From: Oscillospiraceae bacterium
GTDB lineage: Bacteria > Bacillota > Clostridia > Oscillospirales > Oscillospiraceae
Length of the DNA: 32,598 nucleotides
NCBI GenBank assembly: GCA_017461585.1
Contig: JAFTYM010000020.1
Span: forward strand, 1 to 32,598
Direction of reading: 5' to 3'
Under the pieces are notes generated by a model, which made no database searches, was not told the DNA's origin, and was given only the letters and a program-made list of their open reading frames with translations. Below, piece after piece: positions 6,559-31,624 of this stretch; positions within the stretch are counted from its first letter, which is position 1; each line of letters begins with the position of its first letter. The position numbers were made by a program, and so were the translations under genes.

Positions 6559-7635
6559 TTATTTCTCTCCGGTCTTCAAAGAAAAATTATCGGGATCATA
6601 TTTTGTCGCTCTCTCAAGAATTCGCTGGAAACGCTCTATCTTCTTTCTGACCTTTACAGAGTCCATGGTTATCTGCTCATTGTTTTTGTTTTGAGACTTA
6701 AACTGATGAGTGTCGCAGTATATCTGCACCAAAAGCTCATTATCCTGAATAAGATAATCCTCTTCCAGCCACGCAGGGTCAATGTATTCATTGCTCTTCT
6801 CTATGTAATATACCTCTATACCCTGCTTGTGCTGATAGTCCATCTGTGCAACTGCGCTCTCCAGGCCGTTGTCCTCAAGGACAAAAACACGCTGTATTAC
6901 TGCGCCGCCTGCCACTATTGCAGCCTGCTTTTTAAGGTATTCAATAGTAAAATTGTCCTGCCAATAATCACTTACCGCAGTTATTGCCTTAATGCTCTTT
7001 TTGGTAAACTCAATTCCCGAAACGCCAAAGGTGTCCTCTGCGTGAGGATTTGTCCAGTTGGTGCCCTCAAAAAACTCTTCATTTTCCGACAGGAAATCGT
7101 TTATCTTCATACACGCCCACTTTTTAAAGTAATCGTGCTCAACGCCCAGCAGTTTTTTGCGGATATTCTCCAGCGTCTCATAAATGTAGTCGTCACTTGG
7201 CTGGGAATTAAGGTTTTTCAGCAATCTTTCAAAAACCGCATCGAAATACTCCATGGAGCAATCTATGCCGTTCTCTTCAGACAGGGCAGCAATGTCCTCA
7301 GGGAGGTTTTTACCGTCAGGCATTTTAAAGCCGTTTATAAAGATTGGGATGATATTCTTATTACTCTCCAGCGCCAGCTTAATTTCATGACGCAAAAGGT
7401 CATCTTCATCGCTGCATCTGTCAAGACCGCCGTCGGGTATGAGCAGTACAAAATCCTCACACTCGTTTACGGCTTTTGAAATATTCTTTTTAAAACCGCC
7501 CGAAAACAGAGACTCGAAATCAAGAAATACGGAATATCCCTTTTCTTTCAGCTTCTCATAAAAAACTCTCGCATGTGCATCCGATCCGTTTCGTCGGTAG
7601 CTTATAAAAATCTGATATGGCAGCTGTCTTTGCAT
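6559..7635 (-). CDS. TIR-domain protein with uncharacterised C-terminal domain
   Basis: 358 residues. The N-terminus is a TIR domain (about 7-135): YQIFISYRR strand, GYSVFLDFESLFSGG BB-loop, DFVLLIPDGG, and LLRHEIKLAL with E84 at the position of the catalytic glutamate of TIR NAD hydrolases. Such domains cleave NAD+ and can release cyclic ADP-ribose isomers or deplete NAD+. The C-terminal ~200 residues are alpha/beta (IVAGGAVIQRVFVLED, GIEVYYIE, LLVQIYCDTHQF) and I do not recognise the family with confidence. It is the last gene of the operon, 12 bp after luxS, with a GGGGTG ribosome binding site. It could be an effector or a signal-producing enzyme. Confidence 0.88.
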   Translation of the reverse strand: MQRQLPYQIFISYRRNGSDAHARVFYEKLKEKGYSVFLDFESLFSGGFKKNISKAVNECEDFVLLIPDGGLDRCSDEDDLLRHEIKLALESNKNIIPIFINGFKMPDGKNLPEDIAALSEENGIDCSMEYFDAVFERLLKNLNSQPSDDYIYETLENIRKKLLGVEHDYFKKWACMKINDFLSENEEFFEGTNWTNPHAEDTFGVSGIEFTKKSIKAITAVSDYWQDNFTIEYLKKQAAIVAGGAVIQRVFVLEDNGLESAVAQMDYQHKQGIEVYYIEKSNEYIDPAWLEEDYLIQDNELLVQIYCDTHQFKSQNKNNEQITMDSVKVRKKIERFQRILERATKYDPDNFSLKTGEK

Positions 7636-7647
7636 ATCTTCACCCCA

Positions 7648-8109
7648 TCACTCTTTATATTTCATGTTCTCCGGTGTCCAGTTTTCAATAACTTTCAGCA
7701 TCTCCGCAGCCTCTCTTTTTGCTGCATCAAGATCGTGCTCCAGATAGTTGCCGCACTCTCTCTGTTTTGCCCCGGGAACTTCGCCCTCAAACTTCGCAAT
7801 AAAGGAAAACGCGTTTTTAACAAGACTTATCACTTCTGCTTTGCTTACAGTATCGCGCACAAGGAGATAAAACCCTGTTCTGCAGCCCATAGGTCCAACA
7901 TAAATCACACGGTCACTATAGCTTCCGTTTCGTGCGTACGTGGCAAAAATGTGCTCTATGGTGTGCATCGCTCCGTTGGAAAGATAGTCTCCCTTGTTGG
8001 GCACTTTCATTCTCAGATCGTAAGTAACAACATCTCCGTCGATTCTGGAAACATATATACCTCTTTCCAAAACGTCATGATTTATGGTAAAGCTTGCTAT
8101 TGTTTTCAT
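7648..8109 (-). CDS. luxS: S-ribosylhomocysteine lyase (LuxS family)
   Basis: 153 residues with the LuxS metal motif HTIEH (H49, E52, H53), the catalytic cysteine in GPMGCRTGFYL (C76) and the third metal ligand in ECGNYLEHDL (C119). LuxS splits S-ribosylhomocysteine into homocysteine and DPD, the precursor of autoinducer-2, in the activated methyl cycle. All key residues are present, so activity is likely. The start at 8109 has AAGGAG 7 bases upstream. An alternative start at 8127 would overlap the RyR gene stop as ATGA and add six residues. Its place inside an operon of TIR, RyR and AAA proteins, rather than beside methionine-cycle genes, is unusual. Confidence 0.93.
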   Translation of the reverse strand: MKTIASFTINHDVLERGIYVSRIDGDVVTYDLRMKVPNKGDYLSNGAMHTIEHIFATYARNGSYSDRVIYVGPMGCRTGFYLLVRDTVSKAEVISLVKNAFSFIAKFEGEVPGAKQRECGNYLEHDLDAAKREAAEMLKVIENWTPENMKYKE

Positions 8110-8123
8110 TTGAGTCTCCTTGG

Positions 8124-8405
8124 TCATGCTTTTTCGATTCTGTATCCCAATGCCATTATCAGCTTCAGAGTTCCCATAGCCGTATTGCGGTCATAGTCCT
8201 TTTCACTCTCCGGAAGCTCATTATATGGCACCATACAGGGCGTGGTCTTTTTCTCGCTGTCCTGCTTTTCGCCATACGTCCAGCCCTCTGCAATACGCCC
8301 CTGTGCCCATACCTCATGGACATTTTCTGCTATTTTCTCCGTCAGCGCCACAAGCTCCTCAGGAAGTTCGATATGGTCTGTGTTAAAAGGTTTTGGTGTA
8401 TACAT
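8124..8405 (-). CDS. Stand-alone RyR domain protein
   Basis: 93 residues, almost entirely one RyR (ryanodine receptor repeat) domain: LVALTEKIAENVHEVWAQ, GWTYGEKQDSEKKTTPCMVPY, LPESEKDYDRNTAMGTLK and a final LGYRIEK. The W, GW-YG, P-C-VPY and YDRNT-A-TLK positions match the family closely. Bacterial RyR domains are thought to bind small, possibly nucleotide-derived ligands, by analogy and gene context. A second RyR domain is fused to the TrkA-like protein in the same operon. The start has AGGAGG upstream. Downstream it touches luxS (ATGA overlap possible), implying coupled translation. Confidence 0.9.
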   Translation of the reverse strand: MYTPKPFNTDHIELPEELVALTEKIAENVHEVWAQGRIAEGWTYGEKQDSEKKTTPCMVPYNELPESEKDYDRNTAMGTLKLIMALGYRIEKA

Positions 8406-8423
8406 TCTGTTCCTCCTGTCTGC

Positions 8424-9494
8424 TTACGCGTCAAACGCAGACTTTACAAGTTCTGCAAAAACCCGCACTTTTTCTTCAAGGGGCGGATTTTTGCCGTCAA
8501 ACCACTCCTGTCTGCACAGGTAATAGTCACACTCGTCATTGAGCTCTGTGTCATCAATGAGAAACGGCATTATTTTTATTCCGTCACGAAGTCTGGAAAA
8601 AGCCTTGTCTATTTCATTCAAAACATGAGGTGAATTAATAGAATCACGGCTTATCAATACAACAAACACCTTTGCCGCTCTTATTGCGGCAACTATCTGT
8701 TTTGCAAAAGAGCCCTCTGTCATATTTCGTGTGGCTATCCATGTGGAAACGCCTCTTTTGCCAAGCTCATCTGCCAAAAGATCGGCTGCATGCTGATCTT
8801 TTGTGGAATAGCTGATAAACACATCGTGGCTTTCCTTTTTGTTATGAACATCGTATTTGCACTTTGTGTCCAACACTTTAAGTTCTGCGCTGTCATATCC
8901 GATGACTTTTGGAAAATCACCGATACTCAGCTTGTCGGAATACACGGCATACAGAGACACCTCAGGAAAATATACAGACTTTTTCGCCGCTTTTACATTA
9001 AATTCATTCATGAATTCAACTGTATTCATCTCATGGATCTTCATAAGCTCCGCAGGAAACATGTTTCTGTAAAATTCCTGTGTAAACGCAATAACCTCTG
9101 TGCGTATTACGACTTCATCCCCGGCGATCTTTTTTATCCGGGCACTTATATAATCTGCCAGCTCAAGTACAACCGCAGACCCGAAGCCGCCGAAAGTCGT
9201 GGTGATAAATCTCAATTCAGCCTCATCTGTGTCAAAAAAATCATCTACCACGTCGGGGAATTCTCCCTTGTAAAGGCTGTGTCTGAACATATCTCTGCCG
9301 AGAGCGCGCAAACAACCTGTTCCGTAAGGGTAGTTTTCAAACAGAACCCGCTCATCACTATCGTCAAACTCGTGATTTTCCCGCTTATCGCTGTCAACAT
9401 ATAAAAATCTGACACCGTCGCTGTCTGAAAATCTCACAAATTCTTTCAGAGCACGGCATCCAACACCGCCGACTCCTATATAACACTTTTTCAC
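8424..9494 (-). CDS. Tubulin/FtsZ-like domain fused to a C-terminal TIR domain
   Basis: 356 residues, GTG start with AAGGAG upstream. Residues 1-~215 look like a divergent tubulin/FtsZ-superfamily nucleotide-binding domain: an N-terminal strand and glycine loop (YIGVGGVG, 5-12), FLYVDSD (30-36, like the T3 region) and TTTFGGFGSAVV (98-109) at the place of the tubulin signature GGGTGSG, with the final GTGSG degenerated. Residues 224-~315 are a TIR domain (DVFISYSTKD, GVSTWIATRNMTEGS, AKVFVVLISRDSINS) with E294 in LNEIDKAF at the catalytic-glutamate position. It lies between the ClpB/FtsH hybrid and the RyR gene. A filament-forming or GTP-sensing scaffold carrying a NAD-cleaving domain is the obvious reading, but it is inferred. 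Confidence 0.85.
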   Translation of the reverse strand: MKKCYIGVGGVGCRALKEFVRFSDSDGVRFLYVDSDKRENHEFDDSDERVLFENYPYGTGCLRALGRDMFRHSLYKGEFPDVVDDFFDTDEAELRFITTTFGGFGSAVVLELADYISARIKKIAGDEVVIRTEVIAFTQEFYRNMFPAELMKIHEMNTVEFMNEFNVKAAKKSVYFPEVSLYAVYSDKLSIGDFPKVIGYDSAELKVLDTKCKYDVHNKKESHDVFISYSTKDQHAADLLADELGKRGVSTWIATRNMTEGSFAKQIVAAIRAAKVFVVLISRDSINSPHVLNEIDKAFSRLRDGIKIMPFLIDDTELNDECDYYLCRQEWFDGKNPPLEEKVRVFAELVKSAFDA

Positions 9495-9506: not shown

Positions 9507-12500
9507 TTATACCTTTTGTGATAAAACTGCATCTATCTCTTTTCCGTTTAAGTGGTTTTTCTTCATAAGCTCACTGACCAGCGCATCTATAACGGCTTTG
9601 TTCTCCGATATAAGTGCGATGGCGCGTTTCATCTCTTCATCCAGCATCTTGTTTACAGCATCTCTAACCTGAACAGAAAGCTCGCCTGAGCGCGCGTTCT
9701 GAGGATCAATTACAGCAAGACCAAATGCCTCATCCATGCCGTATGTACAGATAATGTGCTGGGCTGTACGTGTGGCAGCCTCCAGATCACCGCCGGCGCC
9801 TGTGGATATTCCTTCTTTTTCTCCGTAATAGACTATTTCAGAGGCTCTTCCGCCCAAAGATGTGCGGATTTTTGCAAGGAGCTCATCTTTTGTATAGATT
9901 GCTTTACCCTCGTTGTCGGCGTGCTGCATATAACCGCCGTGGTCACCTCTTGCAACGATTGTGAGATAAGTGGGGCACTCTCCGCTGTGCCAGCAGATAA
10001 AGGCATGTCCTGCCTCGTGGCGCGCAACTCTCTCCAGCTGCGAAATATCCCACGCTTTTTCCTCTCCGCTGTTAAATGTCTCGAAGGCATCCTCTAAAAT
10101 CTCGTCTGTCACTTTAAGCTCTCCGCTTCTTATGGCGGTTCTGAGCGCAAGCTCCATTACGGACTCCAGCTCTGCAAGGCTCATGCCCGTGGAGCGCATG
10201 GCGATATTGTCGATTTCGCTCTCAGAGACAGCAAATGCTTCGTTTTTCGCCATCTGCATCTTTATATATTTTGTGCGGCCGTCGCGGTCAGGCAGATCAA
10301 TGTGAACTCTTCTGTCAAATCTTCGCATAAGGGCGGGATCCAGACTCTTGGCCTTTCCCGGCTCTACATCAAAGTTTGTGGCAGCAAGTACAAACACAGG
10401 CTTGGAGGGGTCGTTTTTAAATCCGTCTATCTCTGTTAAAAATGCAGTCAGCGTCTCTTCGCTTCCTGCGCCGTGGTCGCCGCCGCGGCGTTCTTTTGCT
10501 ATCGCGTCTATCTCGTCAATAAACAGGATTGCAGGTGCATACTTGCGGGCTGTGCGGAAAAGCTCGTGCACTCTGTCTGCGCCCTCGCCCACAAATTTCT
10601 TTAAAAACTGGTTGCCTTCCGCTGCGATGAATGTTACATCAGACTCGCTTGCCATAGCTTTTGCAAGCATGGTCTTACCGGTTCCCGGAGGTCCGTATAA
10701 TAGAACACCTTTCGGTGCTTTTACACCTGTTCCCAAAAACTTCTTCGGATTTTTAAGATATTCAACGAAATACTGCAGTTCCTTTTTTGCATCATCAGCG
10801 CCGATGATGTCATCGAACTTCACATTGGGTTTGGACACTCCGCTGAGCACGTTCTGTCCGTCCTCCGGATCTACTGCAACGCTCATTTCAAAGTCAAAAA
10901 GCTTTATAACAGCAGTTTTTCCCTCATCTGTCAGATACTGTGCAGTCTCAAAGGACACAAGCTTATTTGCTTTTGCCAGCATATTCATGCTTCTCTGCTG
11001 ATGAATATTGTCGCAGACCTGAGCTATCTTCTCTGCGCCGTCCTCCGCGTTGATAACACCGCGCACACCCAGCTTTGTATAAGACAGCAAAACTTCATCG
11101 CCAAAGGGTGTATCTCCGTTCTGTACAAGATAAACGGGGATGTCCCGGTAGTTCTCACGAACAAATTTAAAGAAGTCTCTTGAAGGAGAATTAACGTCCT
11201 CAAGATTTAAGTATCCTCTGTCTGCCGTTTCGCCAAACAGAGGATCAATAACGATCATCTGAATATCGTACTTAGACAGCACTTCTTTTCCCTCTGCAAC
11301 AGTCTGCACAGCGGTCACATGCTGTTTCTCTCCTGCCTTAAGCTCTTCTCCAAACAGAAGGACCTGATGAGTCTCGGTGTTTTCAAACAATGCACGGATC
11401 TCGGCATTTTCCGGAAGCTCAACGGTCATGGATATTTTATCCAGACCGCTTATACCGCCAAAACCATTTTTATCGGTAACAAGTCTGAAAAGCTCAAACA
11501 ATTCATCATCAAAAAATGTTTCCGCACGGCTTCTGACGGTTCTCGCATCTGCTGCACCGCCCTCTGCAAACAGCAGCGCGGTGAACACCTTTTCGTCTAT
11601 ATCAACATCAATGCCTATCTCATTTTCAAAGTTCTCAGCATGGCGCAAAACCTCACGTTTTGCAATATCCCGCAGATTGTGAGATGCCATTCTGTTGAAC
11701 ATTACCACATTGCCCGATGCAAAGCGCGAGCAAATTGCAGCAGGAAAATAAGGCACGCCCGTCTCTGGATTTACGTCGTTCTGCAGCGCTTTAAGTATGA
11801 CCTTTCTGGAAACACCGGAAAAATCTCCGCTCTCGCTGTTTTCATAAAGCTGTCTGCCTGCGTTTGTGGTAAAAATAAGTATTGCCTGAGAGAAGGATAC
11901 CTCTGCGTCGGTATAGTTATCCCTCAGTCTGCCTGCGTCGAGCAGCTGCAGGAACAGGTGGATAACATTGATATGCGCTTTCTCTATTTCATCAAAAAGC
12001 AGAACACAGCAGGGATTTTTCTCAACAAAAGAGGTTACGTTGCCTGCTTTTCCGTTTTTATATACTTTATCAGAACCGCAAAATTCAATATTCGCTTCTT
12101 TATCTGCGTATTCGCTCATGTCAAACCGCATAAACGGTCTTCCAAGCGCCTCTGCAGCCTTTTCCGCCAGGAATGTCTTTCCTACACCCGGAGGTCCTGC
12201 AAAAAGGAAAGTTGCGCCCGGACGCACTCGGGACTTATCTGTCATCGCCAGCATTTCTGCCTGGAAAAATCCCGTAGCAAAAGTGCTTACGGCATTATCC
12301 TGTCCAAACACGCTGCCAAGAAGCCCGGTTCTGATCTCTTTCACTTTCAAAACCAGCGTTTCTAACCATGTTTTTGCGTTTTCAGGCTTAGGCTCTTCAG
12401 CATGAGAAGCGACTTCAAACAAATCTTCGTCAATGTCTACGCCGTATTCAGAAATATAGTCAATCGGCATTATCGGATCTTCTTCCGGCACATTTCCGTT

Positions 12501-12890
12501 ATTGACGATCACCTTTATCGTCCCGGAAGGATCTGCAAAAATACACTCTACAACGTCAGACAACGTAATCATATCTCCGTTACGGGCAGCCACTTTGTTT
12601 TTGGCTGCCATCAAGATCTTCTGCATGTAAATTTTATCTGCAAGTCCTGCCACGGGATGTGCTCTGATATGTTTCATCAGAACATTGCGCATAACAGAAA
12701 GAGATATGCCTGTTCCGCGGATAAGCTTTACAAAAGAAGAGTCCTGTCCCATATCTCCGTATTTTTCTACATGATCAATGGTAACGACCATTATTTTTTC
12801 TGCCGTTGCATAAGAATCGCTTCCGTCGCCTACTGACGCTGCGTTTTCCAATATCATTTTCAGCAGATTACTGTTTACGATTTCTTTCAT
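9507..12890 (-). CDS. Hybrid ClpB-like AAA+ / receiver-like / FtsH AAA+ zinc protease
   Basis: 1127 residues. An N-terminal helical segment (1-130) is loosely Clp-N-like. A Clp/Hsp100-type AAA+ module follows with Walker A GPPGVGKT (232-239) and Walker B LLFDEIEKAH (297-306). Residues ~506-635 resemble a receiver fold (IQMIVIDP, IPVYLVQNGD, LGVRGVIN) but lack clear phospho-acceptor chemistry. The C-terminal half is FtsH-like: Walker A GPPGTGKT (733-740), Walker B LFIDEIDA, arginine-finger region ALMRRFDR, then an M41 protease with HEAGH (958-962) and third zinc ligand D1035 in the GGDLEAAT segment. FtsH's N-terminal membrane helices are absent, so it is probably soluble. It likely unfolds and degrades specific proteins, possibly the tubulin-like partners. 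It starts 20 bp after the TrkA-RyR gene. Confidence 0.92.
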   Translation of the reverse strand: MKEIVNSNLLKMILENAASVGDGSDSYATAEKIMVVTIDHVEKYGDMGQDSSFVKLIRGTGISLSVMRNVLMKHIRAHPVAGLADKIYMQKILMAAKNKVAARNGDMITLSDVVECIFADPSGTIKVIVNNGNVPEEDPIMPIDYISEYGVDIDEDLFEVASHAEEPKPENAKTWLETLVLKVKEIRTGLLGSVFGQDNAVSTFATGFFQAEMLAMTDKSRVRPGATFLFAGPPGVGKTFLAEKAAEALGRPFMRFDMSEYADKEANIEFCGSDKVYKNGKAGNVTSFVEKNPCCVLLFDEIEKAHINVIHLFLQLLDAGRLRDNYTDAEVSFSQAILIFTTNAGRQLYENSESGDFSGVSRKVILKALQNDVNPETGVPYFPAAICSRFASGNVVMFNRMASHNLRDIAKREVLRHAENFENEIGIDVDIDEKVFTALLFAEGGAADARTVRSRAETFFDDELFELFRLVTDKNGFGGISGLDKISMTVELPENAEIRALFENTETHQVLLFGEELKAGEKQHVTAVQTVAEGKEVLSKYDIQMIVIDPLFGETADRGYLNLEDVNSPSRDFFKFVRENYRDIPVYLVQNGDTPFGDEVLLSYTKLGVRGVINAEDGAEKIAQVCDNIHQQRSMNMLAKANKLVSFETAQYLTDEGKTAVIKLFDFEMSVAVDPEDGQNVLSGVSKPNVKFDDIIGADDAKKELQYFVEYLKNPKKFLGTGVKAPKGVLLYGPPGTGKTMLAKAMASESDVTFIAAEGNQFLKKFVGEGADRVHELFRTARKYAPAILFIDEIDAIAKERRGGDHGAGSEETLTAFLTEIDGFKNDPSKPVFVLAATNFDVEPGKAKSLDPALMRRFDRRVHIDLPDRDGRTKYIKMQMAKNEAFAVSESEIDNIAMRSTGMSLAELESVMELALRTAIRSGELKVTDEILEDAFETFNSGEEKAWDISQLERVARHEAGHAFICWHSGECPTYLTIVARGDHGGYMQHADNEGKAIYTKDELLAKIRTSLGGRASEIVYYGEKEGISTGAGGDLEAATRTAQHIICTYGMDEAFGLAVIDPQNARSGELSVQVRDAVNKMLDEEMKRAIALISENKAVIDALVSELMKKNHLNGKEIDAVLSQKV

Positions 12891-12909: not shown

Positions 12910-14715
12910 TTACGCTTTTCCGACTCGTCTGTCTTTATCCAAATCCTCATCTGTCAGGCGATGTGTCGGCACCATATTGTGATGCATCTTTCCCAGTTCG
13001 TTTCTGCTTGAAGAGTCATCGGATCCGCTGTATACAAATCCTTCAGATCTCATATATGCAAACCAGCGGCAATGCTCAAGGTCTTCTATCGCCTTGTTTC
13101 TCTTTTTCTCTTCCTCGGTCATCTCTTCTTCAGGCTTGTCTATAAACTGCAGGTTGCAATGGATGCGAGCCTTCTTGTGCAGCGCCGTTGCCACAGAGGA
13201 GCGGTAGTTATACTCAATGTCCCAAAACTCCTCTTCTTTGGCGTTGTCCCAAGCCATGTGGCATTTGAGCGCAGCATCTTCAACCTCTGAATCAATGATG
13301 ACCTTTTCCGTGTAAGAGGAGTCTATATCGCCGATAAATCTGATATCATACGTCTGATTCTTATGGTTTTTGATGCCCTCAAGTGCAGCTCTCTCCTCGC
13401 TGCTGTGGACCACAGCAACAATTACAGGCTTGATTCGAAGTCTCTCAAATCGCATACGCAGATCGGCAGCGACTCTGACGTTGTCCTCATCTGTGCCTAA
13501 TGCGACAAATACATAAGTCGCATCCTTAAGTTCCATTATCTTTTCTGCAAAATCATGTGTATTTGCATCAATATCCGAATGCACTTTTATCTCATAGTGC
13601 GGATGACCTTCAGCGATAACTCCCTGATTTTCCTTTTCAATCATCTCAGGTGCCAGATAAGCAACCCGGGATTCTGCATTTTTGTCCTTGTCAAATGCGG
13701 TGATCTTCAGCTTATAATCCACCATCTGACCGTACCAGGACAACGCTCTGAGCATTGTTGTGCCGTACTGTCCCAAGCCTACGATAACTGCAGAAATACA
13801 CTTTGTGCCGCTTTCGTCAGCCTTGGCGCTGTCAAACAGCAGATGACCTTCGTCATACAGAAGGCGGCTGATAAGGGAGTGTATCTCGTCAATACGGCGA
13901 ACAGTCATTTTTCCTCTGGGCGTAGACGCAAGGACAAGCTCGCTTTCTGTAGCGGTGGAGAAGAGATAGAGCATGGTATTCTCTCTGTCTTTATGCTCTG
14001 CTATAAGCTTAAGTGTCTGTCGGAGGTTTTCCGTCTCATTGCCTCCCACTACGAAAAACCACGTCTTTTTTGTGAGCTTATCCAATCTGAATCTGATTGA
14101 AAGAATATCTTTTTTAAAGCATATTGCGTCTATTTCCGCAGCCTGCTCAATAAGCTCTTTTTCGGTTTCGGATTCTGCCTCGTTTACACCTGCAAACACA
14201 AGCAGCACATCCGGATTGTTCTTACGCAGATCTTTTGCCAGCGCAACAGATCTCTCGTTGATTTCGGAAAATATGTAAGTTTCCTTGTTTCTGCGAACAA
14301 AATACCTGATGTATGCGTTGACATCCTTAAAGAAGGACAGAACAACACCAAAGGTAAAGAACGGAGCTGCCACCATGATTACCAGCGTATATGTCAGATA
14401 AACGGTGTTGAAAACATTGCCGCCTGCAGCAACTGTCTCCATAAAGAAGGAATAGTCTCCGTCCAAAGTGAATGATCTGAGCACGCTGTAAAGAGACACC
14501 AAAACCGCCTGCGGTCCTCTAAAGCTCGTTGCGGACGCATTGTAATAGTATGGCATATACAGAAAAAATGCAGATACAGCCACACCTATGAACAAAATAT
14601 TGAAACTGCGCAGCAGCTTATGGCGCTTGATCTTGTTCTTCTCACAGTAAATAACCGCAAAAATCGCCGCAGCCAATATTACTACGGAAATGATAAACTG
14701 TACTGTCCAACTCAT
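12910..14715 (-). CDS. Membrane TrkA/RCK-like protein with C-terminal RyR domain
   Basis: 601 residues from the ATG at 14715, with AAGGAG 8 bases upstream; a GTG one codon earlier is possible. Three membrane helices lie in the first ~130 residues. Two Rossmann-type modules follow: one at about 145-260 without a clear dinucleotide loop, and one at 305-470 with VIVGLGQYGT (GxGxxG, 314-319) as in TrkA-N/RCK domains that bind NAD(H) or nucleotides and gate ion transport. Residues ~540-600 form an RyR domain (DLEHCRWFAYMRSEGFVYSG, KMHHNMVPTHRL). No selectivity filter is evident, so it may be a receptor or channel-like protein rather than a potassium channel. It could couple a nucleotide signal made by the TIR proteins to the membrane. 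Confidence 0.87.
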   Translation of the reverse strand: MSWTVQFIISVVILAAAIFAVIYCEKNKIKRHKLLRSFNILFIGVAVSAFFLYMPYYYNASATSFRGPQAVLVSLYSVLRSFTLDGDYSFFMETVAAGGNVFNTVYLTYTLVIMVAAPFFTFGVVLSFFKDVNAYIRYFVRRNKETYIFSEINERSVALAKDLRKNNPDVLLVFAGVNEAESETEKELIEQAAEIDAICFKKDILSIRFRLDKLTKKTWFFVVGGNETENLRQTLKLIAEHKDRENTMLYLFSTATESELVLASTPRGKMTVRRIDEIHSLISRLLYDEGHLLFDSAKADESGTKCISAVIVGLGQYGTTMLRALSWYGQMVDYKLKITAFDKDKNAESRVAYLAPEMIEKENQGVIAEGHPHYEIKVHSDIDANTHDFAEKIMELKDATYVFVALGTDEDNVRVAADLRMRFERLRIKPVIVAVVHSSEERAALEGIKNHKNQTYDIRFIGDIDSSYTEKVIIDSEVEDAALKCHMAWDNAKEEEFWDIEYNYRSSVATALHKKARIHCNLQFIDKPEEEMTEEEKKRNKAIEDLEHCRWFAYMRSEGFVYSGSDDSSSRNELGKMHHNMVPTHRLTDEDLDKDRRVGKA

Positions 14716-14762
14716 CACATCGTCTCCTTACATCGTGTAATTCTGAGTTTAAACGTTTAATC

Positions 14763-16033: not shown

Positions 16034-16064
16034 ACTAAAAGGCGACCGCAGGTCGCCTTTTAGT
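16034..16064 (-). terminator. Intra-operon hairpin (possible partial terminator or processing site)
   Basis: A 14-bp perfect stem ACTAAAAGGCGACC/GGTCGCCTTTTAGT with a 3-base loop, in the gap between the lipoprotein and CARF-nuclease genes. The U-run sits inside the 3' arm and none follows the stem, so termination may be partial. Confidence 0.6.
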
Positions 16065-16067
16065 TGT

Positions 16068-23907: not shown

Positions 23908-23928
23908 AATGACACCTTCCTTACGGTC

Positions 23929-23962
23929 CGCCGGGCAGAGAGCTTTCACCCTCTGTCCGGCG
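23929..23962 (-). other. Intra-operon hairpin after the tubulin-like gene
   Basis: A 12-bp stem with one G-T pair (CGCCGGGCAGAG at 23929-23940 with CTCTGTCCGGCG at 23951-23962) in the 66-bp gap. No T-run follows on the minus strand, so it looks more like an RNA-stability or processing element than a terminator. Confidence 0.6.
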
Positions 23963-23973
23963 CTATTTCGCAA

Positions 23974-26900
23974 TTAGTTAGACCATGCTTCCTTCCAATG
24001 TCTGATAAGGTCGATATCCTTGTCCTTCATTGTAGATGCATTGTAGATACGCTGGCACAGTTCATAAGCCTTCTGCTTTACCTTAGCTTCTTCGCCGCGC
24101 TCATATTTGTTTTCAATAAGCTTCTGGAGCAGCTTTTCAAGAGATTGGATAAGCATTGCTGTAACGTCTGTGTCGTGCTTGGGGCACTTGTGGTAACGTA
24201 CAATAACTGTTACTGCGTTGTTATCCTGTGCAGATGCAAGTCCGCCCTCAATGTTCTTGCCGCCCTTGCCGTCAGCTACGGACTTGCCGCGAAGCAGCTC
24301 TGTGTTCTCGTAGCTTACGATCTCCTCACACTCCTGCTCAAACTTCTTTGCAAGACGGGAAGCCATAAGAACAAAGGAACCGTCCAGCTTAAGTGCAGCG
24401 ACAAGCTGGTCTACGTCTACCTTGCCGACTTCCTTGCCCTTAAACTTGATAACTTCGTTTTCGATATATTCGCCTGTAACGGTCTTTCTTGTTCTTGCAA
24501 CCTGATACTTGCCGCTCTTGCTCAGAGAGATCATACCATATGCCAGAGCAAGCCAGAACAGGCGGTAGAACTTCTCATCCTCTGCTCTCTGCTTTTCGGG
24601 TGTGATATAAGGCAGGAAGAGATGCCATGTCTTGTCCAGATGAGGTGTGTGGATAAGCTCAGCATCGTTGCCCTTGCCTGCTTCGAGAACCATCTGGTCA
24701 ACTGCCTCACGGTAGCATGTGTAGTATTCGCCGCCGTTAAGCTCGTTGAACTTGGGAATATAGCCTGCCTGGATGCCGTATACCGCACGGTAGCAATCCA
24801 GCTCGTTCTTCTTGTAAGCAATATTTTCCTGAGAGGATACGTTGATGCCGAGGATAGCGCCCAGCTCTGCGCACTTTTCGCCGACAATGGGGTTGAAGCC
24901 CCAGAATGTCTTGCGCTTTTTGATGGGCATAAATGTGCTTGTCTCGTAATCGCCGTAGTCAGCCTCGCTGCCGTCGTACTCATGGTTGTCCTCAGGCTGC
25001 TCATCATCGCTGATAAGGAAGGGGGCGCCCATTCTCATAAGATCCTCTACGAGAGTCTGCATTGCGGCAACATGACGCTGATGCTTGGAGTCATCCTCAA
25101 TAACTTCACCTGTGGATACGTCAATATTGAGAGTATCAGACTCCTGCTTGTTCTCCAGGATCGCAGCCTCTTCCTTTGCAAAAGCAATATCAGCGCTCTT
25201 GCAAACAGCTGTGTAAATATCGAGATCAACATCGTCTTTGTTCTTCTTGAGGATAAGCTCCTGATATGCCTTTACGACCTCTGTGAAGAACGTTACAACA
25301 ACGCTGTTGTCAACATAGCTTGCATTTGCGGGAGTTGTGGGACTCTCCTGAGCACAGAACTTACCGTACAGCGCTTTGACGATAATAGCGTTGATACTGT
25401 GATCGCTTGTGCCTGTGTTGAAGTTAAGGCTGTTGTAAAGTGTCTCCTTCTCCTCACCGGAAGCGCAGATATACAGAACCTTCTGTACATTCTCAGAATT
25501 CTTGCGAACGTTTTCTGCAACAGACTCTTTCAGAGTGTTGGAAACCTTTACCAGATCCTTGAAGAACTGCTCGATCTGCTCAATAAGATTTGTAAGTCTC
25601 TCCTGCATCTTGATAGCAAGATTGTACTTAACAATGGAGATGGCATAAGTGCGGCACAGCTCTACCTGACCGGCATTGTGCTGAACATACAGGCTCTTGA
25701 ACTCCTTGAAGCCCTTATCCTTCTTCTGTCCGCGCTTCATGCTCTCAAGGTATTCAATGGGAGTATCCTCTGCGGCTCTTGTCTTTGTATTGTCAAATTC
25801 GATCTTTGCATCTTCGTTCTTGTAGCCCTTCTCAGCGCGGCTGCGGTGAGCGGACACAACAATGTCTGCCTTGACCTCATCCAGTCTGTTCTTGAGCTTG
25901 TAGAGGAGATATCTTACAGCGATGGGGTGAACAAAATAATCCTGATTGTTGTTGTCTTTCTTGGAGAGCAGACCGTAAACAGAAGTTGTATCGGTCATGT
26001 TTACGTCGCCCATGCTTGTGGAGAAGATCTGGTCCAGCAGAGTGTCAACAATTCCGTCAACGCTCTCTTCCATGTCATTGATAAATCTTGTTACCTTCTT
26101 CTCTGTGTTTGTAACTGTGTTTTTAAGAGTTTCTACAGTTTCGCCTGTTGCGTCTGCCCAGTCTCTCTTCAGTCTCAGCTTGCTGAGGCTGCCGGGATCC
26201 TCGGTGTCGATAGTGGTTGCGATAAGTGCATCGAGATTTTCCATAAAATCTTCGATCTTATCTGTATAATTTACAACGTTGCCGTCCTCGCTCTCCATGA
26301 GCTCTTCGTTTTTAACATCGGTTGCAATGTTGAGGAACAGTCTGTCGCTGCCCGCCTTATCACCGCTCTTGGAGGACAGAGTCTCAAACATACGGATGTA
26401 CTCGTTAACGGGATTGAGCTTCTTGCTGACAACTACACCGTCTGCCTCTTTATCCTCTTCCTTCTTCTGCTTTTTGGCGATCTCATCATCAATACGTCTC
26501 CAGCCTGTGGAGATAGCATCCTGAGAAGCTCTAAGTGCACAGTAACGAACGATATCCTCTGTGGGGTAGATAGCCTTTGCTGTACCGCAGGAACCGAACA
26601 CGGGCTCTGAGCTCTTCTGGAAGCGCTTGAACAGGTTATCCTCTTCGGAGTACAGGTCGTCGTGCATGGGGGCATACATCTGCATGTATACAAGTCTTGC
26701 AACTACCTGCTCATACTGCTCGATCTCCTGCAGAACAGATCCTCCCTCGGAGATATCATCGATGAAGAATGCGTAGTCATAAACGGGAGTTCCGTCAGGC
26801 TGGTTCTTCTCGCTGTCGAACAGATTGTCGATCCTTACAGGAAGCAGAGAGGACGCGTTTGCCTTTGTCTTGATCTTTGTGATAGCGTTGAGTTCGCGGA

Positions 26901-27531
26901 TAGCACCGTATGCGTTTGCATAGAGGCTTGCGCGCTCTGTATCGTCTTCACGAATATCCTTAACTGTGTTTACAAAAACATCGGGCAGTACGAAAATGCC
27001 GCGGATGGTGATGCTGCACTTACGCTTTGCAAAATAATTTCTTACCCACAGAGCTGCCTGAATGAACATACCGGAGCCTGTGCCGCCCGCCAGAGAGGAA
27101 ACGATCATAACGCGGATCTTTGCATCATCGCGCTTGTCAAACAGTCTGTTGATAAATGCCTCAAGCTCATGGATGGAGCGGTCCTCGATAATATCCATAA
27201 AAGCAAGTCTGGACTTGGGTCTCATCTGAGAAGCGCCGTCCTTCATGCTCTCCTTCAGAAGACTGGGAGACTCAGGCATCCAGTCGCGTACACCTTTGTG
27301 GGCATACATCTTGAGATAGTCTTCAACTTTTCTGTCCTTACTTGTTGCAACAACAGGAATACCTACGCCGGATCCCTTGATCTTGTTCTGGTCGTTCTCG
27401 TTTGTATCCAGAACCGTGCAGCAGATATTTCCATCGTTGACTTTGATCTTTCTCTTTTTAAGGTCATTGGCAACATTGTTTACGATTCGGCTGCCTGTGC
27501 CGCCAAGACCCAGCAATAATGTTTGTGCCAT
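23974..27531 (-). CDS. Large tubulin/FtsZ-superfamily protein (Tubulin_2-like)
   Basis: 1185 residues. The N-terminal nucleotide-binding region has the glycine loop GLGGTGSR (8-15), VLDTNEND (40-47) and the tubulin signature loop SLAGGTGSGMF (146-156), intact and close to GGGTGSG. This matches the Tubulin-like family of large bacterial homologues. It is about three times longer than FtsZ. The remaining ~900 residues are mostly helical and charged, with no other domain I recognise and no membrane helix. It probably binds GTP and may polymerise. It lies between the vWA gene and the two-TM protein; large tubulin-like proteins adjacent to vWA proteins suggest a membrane-linked assembly. GGGAGG lies upstream, 19 bp after the vWA gene. 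Confidence 0.88.
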   Translation of the reverse strand: MAQTLLLGLGGTGSRIVNNVANDLKKRKIKVNDGNICCTVLDTNENDQNKIKGSGVGIPVVATSKDRKVEDYLKMYAHKGVRDWMPESPSLLKESMKDGASQMRPKSRLAFMDIIEDRSIHELEAFINRLFDKRDDAKIRVMIVSSLAGGTGSGMFIQAALWVRNYFAKRKCSITIRGIFVLPDVFVNTVKDIREDDTERASLYANAYGAIRELNAITKIKTKANASSLLPVRIDNLFDSEKNQPDGTPVYDYAFFIDDISEGGSVLQEIEQYEQVVARLVYMQMYAPMHDDLYSEEDNLFKRFQKSSEPVFGSCGTAKAIYPTEDIVRYCALRASQDAISTGWRRIDDEIAKKQKKEEDKEADGVVVSKKLNPVNEYIRMFETLSSKSGDKAGSDRLFLNIATDVKNEELMESEDGNVVNYTDKIEDFMENLDALIATTIDTEDPGSLSKLRLKRDWADATGETVETLKNTVTNTEKKVTRFINDMEESVDGIVDTLLDQIFSTSMGDVNMTDTTSVYGLLSKKDNNNQDYFVHPIAVRYLLYKLKNRLDEVKADIVVSAHRSRAEKGYKNEDAKIEFDNTKTRAAEDTPIEYLESMKRGQKKDKGFKEFKSLYVQHNAGQVELCRTYAISIVKYNLAIKMQERLTNLIEQIEQFFKDLVKVSNTLKESVAENVRKNSENVQKVLYICASGEEKETLYNSLNFNTGTSDHSINAIIVKALYGKFCAQESPTTPANASYVDNSVVVTFFTEVVKAYQELILKKNKDDVDLDIYTAVCKSADIAFAKEEAAILENKQESDTLNIDVSTGEVIEDDSKHQRHVAAMQTLVEDLMRMGAPFLISDDEQPEDNHEYDGSEADYGDYETSTFMPIKKRKTFWGFNPIVGEKCAELGAILGINVSSQENIAYKKNELDCYRAVYGIQAGYIPKFNELNGGEYYTCYREAVDQMVLEAGKGNDAELIHTPHLDKTWHLFLPYITPEKQRAEDEKFYRLFWLALAYGMISLSKSGKYQVARTRKTVTGEYIENEVIKFKGKEVGKVDVDQLVAALKLDGSFVLMASRLAKKFEQECEEIVSYENTELLRGKSVADGKGGKNIEGGLASAQDNNAVTVIVRYHKCPKHDTDVTAMLIQSLEKLLQKLIENKYERGEEAKVKQKAYELCQRIYNASTMKDKDIDLIRHWKEAWSN

Positions 27532-27550: not shown

Positions 27551-30166
27551 TCAAGCATTTGTAGATTTCAATGCGTAGCAGAATACCGTCGCACTGTCAA
27601 TAACTTCCATTTGTTTACTTGCAGAAACTTTTTCATAAGTAATATCTGCACGGACGCAATAATAAGAATCGCTGCTCTGCGAAACCGTTCTCTTCTGAGA
27701 GTCCATAACCGTTGTGGGCAGGATTTCCTTGATTTCAAGCTCACCGTTATCCATGCAATATCTCACCACGTCTATGGGCATCTCGATATTTATAAGTCTG
27801 GACTTGGGTATGACCTCACCGCAGAACCACGGAAACGCCTCATTGCATATTACCTTGCCTCGCTTAGCCGCCGTAAAGCTAAGTCCGTTCACATTGACTG
27901 TAAGCTCCTTGAACGGATTCCAAAGGTTTTTGAATTTATTATACTGTGCCAAAGGAATTTCACGCAGCTCAAGGCTGTGGGTTTTATCGCGTCTGTTTCG
28001 CATGACGCTGCCAATATACATGGATGTATTCGGCGCGAAACGCGCTTTTGTAAAGTATCTTACTATATAGGCGATTATTGCCGCCAAAACAAGAACCTCA
28101 ACAAAGAGAGGCAGGATAACATATAAAATCAGATATTTCAGCGGAGCTCCAACAACAGGAATTGCCTCTGATGCGTCTCCTGTGGGATGTGATAATGTCA
28201 CCACAACATCCTCGCCGCTGGTGCCGAAATAATTTATCCAGTTGATCCACCAGCTGCCGAATGTTATCTCATTCGCCTCATCTGAATACGGAACACACTT
28301 TATGGTACCGTCGTCATCAATTGTGATGATGGTTTTCAGGTCCGCATGCTCCTCGTTAAGAGAAACCGTAAAGCTGCCCTCAACCTCAGACTTTGTCATT
28401 CTTGTTCCGTCTTTGGTGATATAGAACGATGCGCCCTTGTCGTTGCCGTAAAACTCATTCTTGCGTATCTCTCCGTCATTGCCGAGAGAGGTGATACCGT
28501 ATTCCGCAGTAAGAACTGCGTATGTAGCTGTTGCAGAAGAGCCATCGATATCACATGTAACGGCGACCTCGAACATACCGCTCATAGAATCGTTATCCGA
28601 ATAGTTTGGTGTAAAAATGATTTTACCGTCATCGGTATACTCTGTAGTACCGCTGTTGCCGTTTGGAGACACGCTGATTTCTGCGCCCAAACCTTTTACT
28701 GTATTCGGATCTGTGACGGGTACACCGTCTGCCAGAACGGTAAATACGATGCGAAGCTGTCTGTTCATAGGCAGATCGTCCAGCTTAACACTTTTAACGC
28801 CATCCTCATATTCTGCCTCAAGAGTATAGCGTATGGCTTTTTCCTGAGGAGTGAAGTGTATCTCAACCTCGATAGGGTTGAAGCCGCCAATGTTAACAGA
28901 TGCTTTGATCTCTGTTTCCGTTTGATTCAGTGAGTACTCGGAAATACTCATATCCTCACCGGAGCTGGACTCCTTCATCTGATTGCCTTCATAAATAGAG
29001 ATCTCAGAGCTTGTCCCCTTCGGCAGCATAGACATATCGATCTTGTTGTCAGTACCCGCCTCATAGAGCTCATAGCTGATGCTGATGTTATCCTCCGCAT
29101 GGGCGTTGTTCAGATCGAAATAGTTTTCAACAGGCTCTCCGTTGCATGTAATGGTCAAGCGAAGCTCCAACGCAGGCTCATACATAACAACGAAATTATT
29201 TTTTGAAACAGGCTTATCAAAGGTTATCTCATATCCGCCTGCAGTAATATTCTTATCCCCGTTGTTTATAAGAAAGGTGCTTCCTATAAGCGACTTGTCA
29301 GTTTTCCAGCCCGACACCTCGGGGTATTGAATATTTACCGCACGGTCAATAACAAGACTTCCGCCCTCTTCATATTTGACGCTCTGTACTTTTGCGTCCG
29401 TCTCCTGCATAAGAACAGCAATATTGGAAAGAGGCACCGCAGAATTTACTCTTATGGTCTTGTCGTCAACCATAGTTATATCCTTGCCGGACAGACGCGT
29501 TCTTCCCGAAACTCTGTCTGCGATCTCAGACATAACGTCAACGATCTCAATTCCGTTGGGATCTTCAACATAAAGTCCCTTATCAATGTTTTCTTTTGGC
29601 TTTGTGGCAGAAGAACCTATAGCCATATAAGTGATCTGAGGCTTTGTGCCGTTCGGCATGGTCATATCACAATAATCAAGAAGGTCATTGGTGAGTTCGC
29701 TTTCGGAAACGCCCATTTCACCGTCTGTAATTACAACGAGCCAATACTGAGTATTTTCATCGTCATCGTGGACACTTGCCAACGCATTAAAGCCAATATC
29801 AATAGCATAATATGCCGTTCCGTCATTGTCAGTATGGGCACGTATCGTATCAACAGAGCCCTGAATTCCGCCGTTTGACAGATCTACCTCCACAGGCTGT
29901 GCATAAGGATCTTCAATTACATCACTCATGTATGTAATAAACAGCTGATCCTCGCTGTTTAAAAGACCGCAGAATGCCTGCATCGCATAACTGGCATAAG
30001 CCCAGTTCTTTCCGCTTTCATAAGAGATCATACTTCCGGAGTCATCATAGACAACGGAAACTATTTTTCTCACATACAGCGATTGTGCAGATGCATACAT
30101 CGGAATAGCCGCAGCTACACCGAAAAACAGAACAAGCGCCATCAGAAATGTTAAAACCCTTCTCAT
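27551..30166 (-). CDS. von Willebrand factor A domain membrane protein
   Basis: 871 residues. A signal peptide (about 1-27, ending ASA) is followed at once by a vWA domain with an intact MIDAS: D41-x-S43-x-S45 (DDSGS), the threonine in DNDGTAYYA and the aspartate in VVITDGEMG. The middle (~230-660) is beta-rich and extracellular, like Ig/adhesion-type repeats. One membrane helix at ~678-705 precedes a ~165-residue cytoplasmic tail. A metal-dependent ligand-binding domain outside and a tail inside suit a surface sensor or scaffold. The tail would contact the tubulin-like protein encoded next. GGGGG-type ribosome binding site; 18 bp after the XRE gene. Confidence 0.9.
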   Translation of the reverse strand: MRRVLTFLMALVLFFGVAAAIPMYASAQSLYVRKIVSVVYDDSGSMISYESGKNWAYASYAMQAFCGLLNSEDQLFITYMSDVIEDPYAQPVEVDLSNGGIQGSVDTIRAHTDNDGTAYYAIDIGFNALASVHDDDENTQYWLVVITDGEMGVSESELTNDLLDYCDMTMPNGTKPQITYMAIGSSATKPKENIDKGLYVEDPNGIEIVDVMSEIADRVSGRTRLSGKDITMVDDKTIRVNSAVPLSNIAVLMQETDAKVQSVKYEEGGSLVIDRAVNIQYPEVSGWKTDKSLIGSTFLINNGDKNITAGGYEITFDKPVSKNNFVVMYEPALELRLTITCNGEPVENYFDLNNAHAEDNISISYELYEAGTDNKIDMSMLPKGTSSEISIYEGNQMKESSSGEDMSISEYSLNQTETEIKASVNIGGFNPIEVEIHFTPQEKAIRYTLEAEYEDGVKSVKLDDLPMNRQLRIVFTVLADGVPVTDPNTVKGLGAEISVSPNGNSGTTEYTDDGKIIFTPNYSDNDSMSGMFEVAVTCDIDGSSATATYAVLTAEYGITSLGNDGEIRKNEFYGNDKGASFYITKDGTRMTKSEVEGSFTVSLNEEHADLKTIITIDDDGTIKCVPYSDEANEITFGSWWINWINYFGTSGEDVVVTLSHPTGDASEAIPVVGAPLKYLILYVILPLFVEVLVLAAIIAYIVRYFTKARFAPNTSMYIGSVMRNRRDKTHSLELREIPLAQYNKFKNLWNPFKELTVNVNGLSFTAAKRGKVICNEAFPWFCGEVIPKSRLINIEMPIDVVRYCMDNGELEIKEILPTTVMDSQKRTVSQSSDSYYCVRADITYEKVSASKQMEVIDSATVFCYALKSTNA

Positions 30167-30184
30167 CTTTTTCCCCCTCTGTCT

Positions 30185-30472
30185 CTACATTTCCGCGTCG
30201 CGCTGCTGCATGATTATGCTCTCAAAATCATCGGTATATATATCAAGAGCTTTGAGCAGAAGTGCAGTCTCGTCATTCTTATCGAACAGGAGAACCAAAG
30301 ACAGAAAAGTATTCCATGTCATTTTGCGTTTTTTTGCCTCTATCTGCATAACGCTGTGTCTGCTGCTGCCGATTATCTGAGCCAGACCTTCCTGTGTAAG
30401 TTTTAGTTTTTTTCTTAAAACCGGTAGATTCTCCGTCATATTATCTATCAGCTTTTCCCTGATATCAGACAT
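30185..30472 (-). CDS. XRE-family helix-turn-helix DNA-binding protein
   Basis: 95 residues. Residues ~14-65 form a Cro/C1-type HTH (LPVLRKKLKLTQEGLAQIIG, SSRHSVMQIEAKKRKMTWNT), followed by a short acidic helical tail. AGGAG lies upstream. As the only recognisable DNA-binding protein in the operon, it is the natural candidate to bind the 10-bp repeat array around the operon promoter, an inference from position. It is preceded by a hairpin at 30498-30521. Confidence 0.92.
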   Translation of the reverse strand: MSDIREKLIDNMTENLPVLRKKLKLTQEGLAQIIGSSRHSVMQIEAKKRKMTWNTFLSLVLLFDKNDETALLLKALDIYTDDFESIIMQQRDAEM

Positions 30473-30497
30473 AATACAACTCCTATTATACAGTGAC

Positions 30498-30521: not shown

Positions 30522-30534
30522 TGTTGTTAAAAAT

Positions 30535-31002
30535 TTATTCCTCGAGGAACTTTTCAATGGACATAAAGCCCTTGTTAAGAGCAAAGAATTTATCATTATA
30601 CTTGTCAATGATAAAGCATGTAAAATCGATCATATATTCGATGATCTCGCGGCTTACCTCGCTGTCATGGAACGACTGAACCATTCTGAAAGAGACTTTG
30701 CCGTCTGAGATGTCATAATCAAAGCTGCCATCTGTGAGACCGTAGTTTGCATGGCAGGCTGCGATAGCACCGTCTATACGCTTATCCTCTGACATATCAA
30801 AAGGCAAAGCAGAGAGCAATCTCAGAAGCTGACGCTCTATGTCAGCAAAAATAATGAACTGTATAGGAAGATCTTCGCCGGTTACACGGAAGTGAACCAA
30901 CAACTCTTCCTCTGCTTTTTCATAATTCCAATTGCGTGCATCAAGTGCTTCACACAAAGCATCATAAACTTTTTTTGCTCGATCCATTTTTACATCAGAC
31001 AT
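30535..31002 (-). CDS. YbjN-like protein, second of a tandem pair
   Basis: 155 residues, YbjN-family type (single alpha/beta domain similar to type III secretion chaperones). Visible blocks are GEDLPIQFIIFADIERQLLRL, LPFDMSEDKR and GSFDYDISDGKVSFRMVQSF. It shares the same block order and many identities with the next gene upstream, so the two arose by duplication. AGGAGG overlaps the stop codon of its paralogue, 14 bp before the start, indicating coupled translation. YbjN proteins elsewhere affect motility, stress or secretion, but their biochemical role is unclear. No enzymatic residues are evident. Confidence 0.82.
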   Translation of the reverse strand: MSDVKMDRAKKVYDALCEALDARNWNYEKAEEELLVHFRVTGEDLPIQFIIFADIERQLLRLLSALPFDMSEDKRIDGAIAACHANYGLTDGSFDYDISDGKVSFRMVQSFHDSEVSREIIEYMIDFTCFIIDKYNDKFFALNKGFMSIEKFLEE

Positions 31003-31016
31003 TAGACTCTACCTCC

Positions 31017-31490
31017 TTAAGCTTCACTTTCCAAAAACTGTTCCAGAGAGATCATTCCCTTTGAAACCATGAGGAATTTATCATTATAGCTGTCAATTGT
31101 TGCGCATGAGACGAAAATTAGATATTTTATAGTCTCAAAACCGAGAGCGATGTCCCTGAAGCTGTTTGTCATGCGGAAAAATACTTTTCCGTCCAGAACA
31201 TTATAGTCAAAGCATCCGTCAACCAATTTGTTGTTGATTACAGATACAACAACAGCAAAGTCAAGACGCTTATCCTCAGGCACAGTAAAAGGCATCTGAG
31301 AAAAAAGCTGCAGCAGCTGCATATCCACATCACATCTGATGATAAGATCCATGGGCAAATCTTCTCCCTGTGCGCTGCATTCAATTCTGAGATCGGACTC
31401 ATCCTGGCTGTACTTCCAGTCAAGCTTATCGAGAGCATTGCAGATCTGGACAAAGGCATCGGCCGCGCTCAGTTTTTTACGTTCATCCAT
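31017..31490 (-). CDS. YbjN-like protein, first gene of the long operon
   Basis: 157 residues, paralogue of the following gene: GEDLPMDLIIRCDVDMQLLQL, MPFTVPEDKR and GCFDYNVLDGKVFFRMTNSF line up with it position for position. An AAGGAG site precedes the ATG. The promoter -10 (31552-31557) lies about 60 bp upstream and transcription should begin near 31545. Being first, it should be produced in excess over distal genes. Its role may be as a chaperone-like binder for a protein partner of the operon, but nothing in the sequence proves that. Confidence 0.82.
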   Translation of the reverse strand: MDERKKLSAADAFVQICNALDKLDWKYSQDESDLRIECSAQGEDLPMDLIIRCDVDMQLLQLFSQMPFTVPEDKRLDFAVVVSVINNKLVDGCFDYNVLDGKVFFRMTNSFRDIALGFETIKYLIFVSCATIDSYNDKFLMVSKGMISLEQFLESEA

Positions 31491-31533
31491 TTTAAAGTCT
31501 CCTTTATAATGTAATTAAAATACTATGTAAAAA

Positions 31534-31624
31534 TTTTGTAGCAATATCAGTATTATGTAATATTTTGCAACATTTGTCAATATATTTTACGACAAAATGC
31601 AGCAATTTGCGACATTTTGCAGCA
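31534..31624 (-). promoter_or_regulatory. Operator-like array of 10-bp repeats around the operon promoter
   Basis: Six copies of a TTTTGCRRCA-like unit (plus-strand reading). Four are contiguous, with exact 10-bp spacing: TTTTACGACA (31585-31594), AAATGCAGCA (31595-31604), ATTTGCGACA (31605-31614) and TTTTGCAGCA (31615-31624). One, TTTTGCAACA, lies in the -35/-10 spacer (31563-31572), 22 bp from the array. One, TTTTGTAGCA, lies just past the -10 (31534-31543). The period equals a helical turn, suggesting cooperative binding on one DNA face. Confidence 0.75.
31552..31580 (-). promoter_or_regulatory. Promoter of the ~25-kb operon
   Basis: On the minus strand, TTGACA (31580-31575), a 17-bp spacer and CATAAT (31557-31552). 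Start of transcription near 31545. No other convincing promoter or terminator is seen before 6536. Confidence 0.85.

Follow-up and report, generated by a model that had tools for sequence, protein, structure and literature searches.

The closest described relatives of the locus studied here are the FtsZ-like-1/vWA operons, in which the pairing of an FtsZ-like-1 tubulin with a von Willebrand factor A (vWA) protein is known and membrane remodelling has been proposed (Makarova and Koonin 2010, PMC2875224). Our locus is an array of fifteen genes on contig JAFTYM010000020.1 of an Oscillospiraceae bacterium (assembly GCA_017461585.1), and the whole stretch analysed, 32,598 nucleotides, is called the window. 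The array is a four-gene core with an exchangeable cassette, not one conserved 15-gene system. The core encodes a vWA protein, a tubulin, a transmembrane (TM) coiled-coil protein and a 1731-residue protein that we name HelTG; the cassette includes TrkRyR, our name for a membrane protein of TrkA type that ends in an RyR-like domain.

In the sections of PMC2875224 used here, the features shared with the window are an N-terminal FtsZ-like domain with a GTP loop and a long helical rest, an adjoining vWA gene, transmembrane partners and a patchy spread. Most other genes of those operons have no recognisable domain, whereas the window holds a dead helicase fold joined to a peptidase-type domain, and a nucleotide-signal cassette. 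The GAP1-N2 GTPase-centric conflict systems (Kaur et al. 2020, PMC7159879) likewise combine a tubulin and a membrane vWA protein, occur in Firmicutes and Actinobacteria and have a predicted conflict role. As given in the parts of that paper used here, the Firmicutes version has two tubulins and two vWA proteins, whereas the window has one full-length copy of each and a second tubulin-like stretch below the cut-off; the zinc-ribbon GTPase and GAP1 genes of those systems were not seen in the window. No GTPase family was among the Pfam matches listed for the 15 array proteins, the list for Clp-FtsH covering 25 of its 48 families, and GAP1 was not searched by name.

HelTG shares the superfamily 2 (SF2) core with the YprA/MrfA/DrmA helicases of DISARM, ARMADA and Druantia, and its overall fold is closest to MrfA; it differs from them, as they are presented in the portion of PMC12458937 used here, by lost ATPase motifs, a membrane anchor and fusion to peptidase-type domains. 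None of the terms tubulin, vWA and transglutaminase occurs in the text of PMC12458937. No DISARM or Druantia model was listed for the eight of 15 proteins scanned with PADLOC, and ARMADA is newer than that library. The literature searched comprised sections of PMC2875224, PMC7159879, PMC9871819 (on tubulin evolution), PMC12458937 and PMC13232231, with most subscription journals outside it; within these sections we found neither HelTG as a helicase, nor a link of TrkRyR to the core, and for FtsZ-like-1 tubulins no assigned role other than those predicted in 2010 and 2020. A preliminary description of this DNA had regarded the assembly as uncharacterised. Since the core is the known FtsZ-like-1/vWA pairing, this holds, within the literature searched, only for the identity of the fourth protein and for the gene combination.

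The four-gene core

A scan of named genomes gave 79 tubulin-retrieved loci, the best 79 of 195 relatives. Among the loci with enough flank, a vWA gene was located at most 1.8 kb upstream of the tubulin in 64 of 67, and a HelTG relative was located downstream in 60 of 63, at a constant tubulin-to-HelTG spacing of 1.8-2.6 kb. The vWA gene was missed in L100, L145 and L152, and HelTG in L139, L142 and L145 (L and G numbers are our handles for loci or contigs and for genomes); L142, L145 and L152 are metagenome-assembled genomes labelled Bacteroidetes or Saprospiraceae. The third-gene profile matched close relatives, L115 and L130 only; due to the constant tubulin-HelTG spacing, we infer a diverged third gene in the other loci. 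The core gene order recurs across several phyla. Records with vWA, tubulin and HelTG include Neobacillus, Sutcliffiella, Alteribacter, Faecalicatena, Humibacter and Naasia, and the core is present in named Bacillaceae (Neobacillus, Sutcliffiella) and in uncultured gut bacteria alike. The neighbourhood conservation proposed as a check in the preliminary description was found for the order of the core and not for the full assembly: none of the loci seen has the full 15-gene set, many of them ending at 10 kb or at a contig end.

A first search, which covered 150 family genomes, gave the tubulin in 11 of them at E 1e-3. By alignment, 13 of 400 family genomes had a strong match (E <1e-100) and 21 had one at 1e-10, and 10 of 398 phylum genomes matched at 1e-10, with the window's own genome and G066 counted. 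The thresholds for strong matches were set after inspection of the lists. L098 is a contig of G052 and L159 a contig of G060. A contig scan with the single tubulin sequence as query resulted in no match. Carriage by plasmids or phages was considered and rejected; four distant tubulin matches are on plasmids. Two loci carry several tubulin reading frames: four consecutive ones in L100 (5608-15730), of which two overlap and are perhaps a single broken gene, and two in L102 (1175-7629).

The vWA metal-binding motif (MIDAS), DDSGS, is invariant in 14 of 14 homologues, and the preliminary assignment of a vWA module holds even with Pfam VWA matching three of the 14 homologues and missing the window protein. 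The tubulin has the N-terminal FtsZ-like domain with a GGGTG(S/T)G-type loop and a vWA gene in the same operon, both features of FtsZ-like-1 membership; its GGTG.G loop is invariant in 7 of 7. The structure model of the third protein reached a predicted local distance difference test score (pLDDT) of 77, and no match stood out in the fold comparison.

HelTG is predicted to be a membrane-anchored, ATPase-dead SF2 helicase fold, with MrfA as the closest solved structure, plus a zinc-peptidase-like domain. The SF2 core was recognised by fold, with an E of 7e-4 in a local hhalign comparison of 55 relatives, and the structural alignment to MrfA covers positions 13-892 of the model with a root-mean-square deviation of 12.7; Pfam gave no helicase match. 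ATPase motifs I, II and VI were found in 0 of 62, 0 of 62 and 0 of 61 HelTG rows. Most HelTG relatives seen have a zinc-peptidase-type end, whereas in the window clade the zinc-peptidase-like domain has lost HExxH and a transglutaminase-like domain is fused, which is one event on the tree. The preliminary description had named a transglutaminase-like executor, and a hidden Markov model (HMM) recovered a transglutaminase core in HelTG. HelTG matches in eight phage records span the transglutaminase part only. G060 (L159), from the same genus as the window source, has the HExxH type, whereas the window has the fused-transglutaminase type, which suggests transfer. The small lipoprotein occupies the same place after HelTG in L088, L090, L091, L096 and G372.

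Cassette genes and layout of the array

The phage RyR enzyme RyDEP contacts cyclic ADP-ribose (cADPR) through H75, W78, H100 and D117, as reported in the part of the preprint PMC13232231 used here. TrkRyR has H77, W80, H107 and D124 in its C-terminus, invariant in 5 of 5 rows, that is, H, W, H and D at the contact positions; both proteins have a spacing of 17 between the second His and the Asp, whereas the histidines are 30 apart in TrkRyR and 25 in RyDEP. TrkRyR is bacterial and joined to TM and TrkA-like parts, whereas RyDEP is phage-encoded. The contact residues were placed by a weak hhalign comparison with the stand-alone RyR (E 0.002, probability 13%), and Pfam RyR matched one of three TrkRyR homologues, at E 0.03. 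The stand-alone RyR keeps three of the four residues; it and its counterpart in G372, which adjoins TrkRyR there (Pfam RyR 9e-34), differ from RyDEP by T at the second His. The RyR module of the preliminary description is clear in the separate 93-residue gene, and the end of the TrkA protein is a divergent member. That TrkRyR keeps all four contact residues reported for the cADPR-cleaving phage enzyme suggests that RyR domains may act as receptors in TIR signalling by the bacteria themselves; if true, this would bear on the presence of this domain in the ryanodine receptors of animals.

TrkRyR was located on a core stretch in the window, L088, L095, L097, L098/G052, L111, G372, G213 and L159/G060, and additionally in L126, L127, L150 and, by a short cut-off piece, L155. 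Of 400 family genomes, 25 had a match to it at E 1e-3, and in eight the match was strong. Six of these eight were among the 13 genomes with a strong tubulin (hypergeometric P 9e-9); without the three query genomes, the overlap was three of five (P 1e-4). In L211 (9823-11532), an RyR-end protein (phmmer 4e-11) with an HD-type motif, seen by eye, is encoded directly 3' of the TrkRyR gene.

The TIR proteins of the window match the ThsB models of Thoeris weakly, and NCBIfam ThcB4 gave 34.5 bits versus a cut-off of 220; in a Thoeris frame, TrkRyR would be a new effector. The N-terminus of the TIR fusion scored 24.6 bits with Tubulin_2, versus a 27-bit cut-off, and E 0.01-0.04 with the core-tubulin profile. 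Near other cores, the TIR domain is the sole part that the TIR proteins have in common with those of the window; the TIR profile was built from five proteins that it then finds.

According to PADLOC, the nuclease following the lipoprotein has the CARF4-PDDEXK architecture of Card1/Can2; a comparison with PDB sequences gave nothing at E 0.01. A CARF gene follows the core in L096 (46%) and L103 (41%), and in three loci it comes directly after the core with gaps of 30-57 bases. Among 200 family genomes, three, the window's own included, have the N-half of Clp-FtsH, and no full-length Clp-FtsH was seen beside another core in the loci examined. In the other two genomes, G163 and G095, a YbjN gene precedes Clp-FtsH, and in G095 the gene is in two frames; one of the two also has TIR and TrkRyR genes on the contig concerned. 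The YbjN and Clp-FtsH pair is located in L206 (217-18118) and L208 (12565-16473); L206, a contig without the core, encodes a TrkRyR relative preceded, two genes earlier, by a TIR-TPR protein. Upstream of the core, L101 has two homologues of YbjN-like protein 1 and L097 has one, and a 68% identical HTH gene is at the same place in L090.

The fifteen genes run from 31490 down to 6559 on the minus strand, the total including the 93-residue RyR gene. The order, 5' to 3', is YbjN-like, YbjN-like, XRE regulator, vWA, Tubulin_2, TM/coiled-coil, HelTG, small lipoprotein, CARF4-PDDEXK, TrkRyR, Clp-FtsH, tubulin-like/TIR, stand-alone RyR, LuxS and TIR, and the gaps are 14, 62, 18, 19, 0, 16, 15, 57, 44, 19, 12, 18, -4 and 12 bases. 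Table 1 summarizes the features. The preliminary description is thus borne out in its fifteen one-strand genes with short gaps (all at most 62 bases) and, by HMM, in its TIR, CARF, tubulin-like, AAA+ protease and LuxS modules (TIR_2 twice, PADLOC CARF4-PDDEXK, Tubulin_2, the M41 fusion and LuxS). Its nucleotide-signal vocabulary fits the cassette, with the RyR contact residues, the CARF nuclease and TIR; the core is the FtsZ-like-1/vWA pairing instead.

Table 1. Features of the array in 5' to 3' order, with window positions
Feature	Position	Strand	Description
YbjN-like protein 1, first gene	31017-31490	-	Pfam YbjN E 0.005, below cut-off
YbjN-like protein 2	30535-31002	-	Pfam YbjN 3e-6
XRE-type helix-turn-helix (HTH) regulator	30185-30472	-	Pfam HTH_19 1e-5, below cut-off
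Core gene 1, vWA protein	27551-30166	-	hydrophobic stretches 4-22 and 680-698 (anchors at start and near end)
Core gene 2, FtsZ-like-1 tubulin (Tubulin_2)	23974-27531	-	Pfam 1e-52
Core gene 3	21637-23973	-	alpha/beta N domain and coiled coil; TM 589-607 and 623-641
Core gene 4, HelTG	16425-21620	-	1731 aa; about 5 N-terminal TM, predicted dead SF2 helicase fold, zinc ribbon, degenerate zinc-peptidase-like domain, transglutaminase-like domain
Small lipoprotein (DUF5640)	16068-16409	-	Pfam 3e-9
Terminator-like hairpin, core/cassette border	16034-16064	.	14 pairs into TTTT, -24.5 kcal/mol, between genes 8 (lipoprotein) and 9 (CARF)
CARF4-PD-(D/E)xK nuclease (Card1/Can2-like)	14763-16010	-	PADLOC 3e-34; Pfam Card1_endonuc 3e-5, below cut-off
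TrkRyR	12910-14718	-	3 TM, TrkA_N-like region (Pfam TrkA_N 4e-5), C-terminal RyR-like domain
Clp-FtsH fusion	9507-12890	-	Clp-type AAA (AAA_2), FtsH AAA and Peptidase_M41; no TM
Tubulin-like N-terminus (weak) fused to TIR	8424-9494	-	TIR_2 1e-18
Stand-alone RyR	8124-8405	-	93 aa, Pfam RyR 7e-37; overlaps LuxS start by 4 bases
LuxS	7648-8127	-	Pfam 2.5e-52
TIR protein, last gene	6559-7635	-	TIR_2 2e-10

The preliminary description had also assumed one clear promoter and one strong terminator. A promoter-like TTGACA-17-CATAAT is located at 31580-31552, 5' of the first gene; however, such sites were no commoner than in shuffles (21 versus 23.2 and 31 versus 24.9). Terminator-like sites numbered 27 versus 14.6 and 25 versus 13.4 in shuffles. 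A hairpin as at the core/cassette border of the window is also found at the downstream core border in L090, L095 (without a T run), L111 and G372, and no strong hairpin was found at this border in L088, L091, L096, L097 and L103. The hairpin 3' of the last gene belongs to a repeat for which the genome gave 93 matches. Due to the shuffle result, the internal hairpin and the repeat nature of the end hairpin, a single promoter and a single terminator are not established, and the claim of one strong terminator is not confirmed.

Function and alternative explanations

The interpretation that we favour, with a probability of roughly 0.5, is a conserved envelope-spanning four-protein machine with a changeable effector and sensor cassette, most likely serving defence against invading DNA or a response to envelope stress. 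A defence job is probable from the patchy spread, the defence-type helicase fold, the nucleotide-signal neighbours and the CARF nuclease. In the proposed mechanism, the vWA protein would face outward and sense an envelope event, the tubulin would assemble at the membrane on GTP, and the third protein would be an adaptor. The dead helicase may be a docking platform for nucleic acid or protein and no motor, and the peptidase end may be the output, a zinc peptidase in most relatives seen and a transglutaminase-like cysteine peptidase in the window clade. A dead helicase acting as detector with a peptidase output is the most likely mechanism, at about even odds. In the cassette, TIR would make an ADP-ribose-type signal that RyR domains would bind or remove, the TrkA-RyR membrane protein would be a receptor or effector, and the CARF nuclease and Clp-FtsH would provide nuclease or protease output. 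With a usual fourth partner that joins a peptidase to a dead helicase of defence-type fold, FtsZ-like-1 tubulins would gain a concrete, testable mechanism. The fullest version is tentative and well short of even odds: a widespread unnamed immune machine in which vWA would be the outward sensor, the tubulin would form a filament at the membrane, the coiled-coil protein would be the adaptor and an MrfA-like helicase fold without a motor would detect nucleic acid and fire a built-in peptidase (zinc to cysteine type in one clade), and in which bacterial RyR domains would be receptors (TrkRyR) and off-switches for TIR-made ADP-ribose signals.

Several observations weigh against the defence machine. 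Two of the three loci missing HelTG (L142, L145) are Bacteroidetes. The hhalign comparison with MrfA gave no helicase match when the 14 closest rows were used or when 55 rows were aligned globally, the DUF1998/MZB model matched no HelTG in any of seven genomes, and the HelTG structure model has a predicted template modelling score (pTM) of 0.43. The peptidase swap, as a single tree event, is not repeated evidence. PADLOC (2023) had no match for the tubulin, the third protein and HelTG (vWA being outside the scan), nor for three HelTG relatives. In G022 and G115, TrkRyR and the tubulin are on different contigs, and adjacency is not shown there; a TIR gene was at most 1 kb from TrkRyR in only 4 of 22 places and at most 6 kb in five. 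Cas10 was found in 0 of 9 genomes, including those of L096 and L103 and the 79% complete own genome, with the control positive in 5 of 14, which leaves the CARF ligand without a known source.

The published reading of FtsZ-like-1/vWA operons in the sections of PMC2875224 used here also opposes defence. It would make the core a physiological membrane-remodelling or vesicle machine with incidental immune-type neighbours, and the transmembrane stretches in vWA, the third protein and HelTG speak for it. We consider this unlikely, as the distribution is patchy within one family (13 of 400), a dead helicase fold, a zinc ribbon and a peptidase end would be unusual remodelling parts, and the TrkRyR and CARF neighbours recur.

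A stack of independent systems in one island (the core, a TIR-RyR cassette, the CARF nuclease, and Clp-FtsH with YbjN), each acting alone, comes somewhat closer to an even chance without reaching it. The recurring hairpin at the downstream core border is in its favour, and the proposed units occur apart: TrkRyR on stretches without the core tubulin in G385, G125 and G313, TrkRyR beside TIR without it in G302 and G163, and YbjN with Clp-FtsH without the core on the G163 and G095 stretches. However, TrkRyR is enriched in core-tubulin genomes, CARF directly follows the core at close range in three loci, and every gap in the window is short. One integrated 15-gene pathway, as proposed in the preliminary description, would account for the single strand, the short gaps and the RyR-LuxS overlap, but is very improbable given the internal terminator-like hairpin and the lack of the full set in the loci seen, whose flanks are limited; as a single conserved system it was rejected on the latter ground.

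Flanking sequence and minor observations

A hairpin-containing repeat of about 115 bases, dispersed in the genome, occurs in the window at 73-187 and 6415-6560, and many of its 93 genome matches are at contig ends. A site-specific island with att repeats was considered from the 115-bp direct repeat (73-187, 6421-6536) and ruled out, because a repeat dispersed in this way is no att site. In a comparison aimed at an empty site, G141 and G372 both contained the left flank gene, but its neighbours differed from those in the window and tRNAs were lacking. A tRNA-Asn is upstream of the core in four loci, namely the window (32369-32595, where it follows a 5S rRNA), L091, L096 and L111; the window and L096 both have a DUF3267 gene (59% identical) between it and the core.

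The LuxS of the window is the only copy found in its 79% complete genome, and LuxS was not found in 10 of 15 genomes, both of which speak against LuxS as a module of the system. However, LuxS also follows a separate transglutaminase gene of the system in L148 (21061-21531, 48 bases away) and L154 (22491-22802, about 1.7 kb), by chance or by a link. Finally, at window positions 1801-6015, a T-box leader precedes a plus-strand operon of two genes, the second of which appears, by eye, to encode a sugar-isomerase-type barrel fused to an acyl-CoA ligase.

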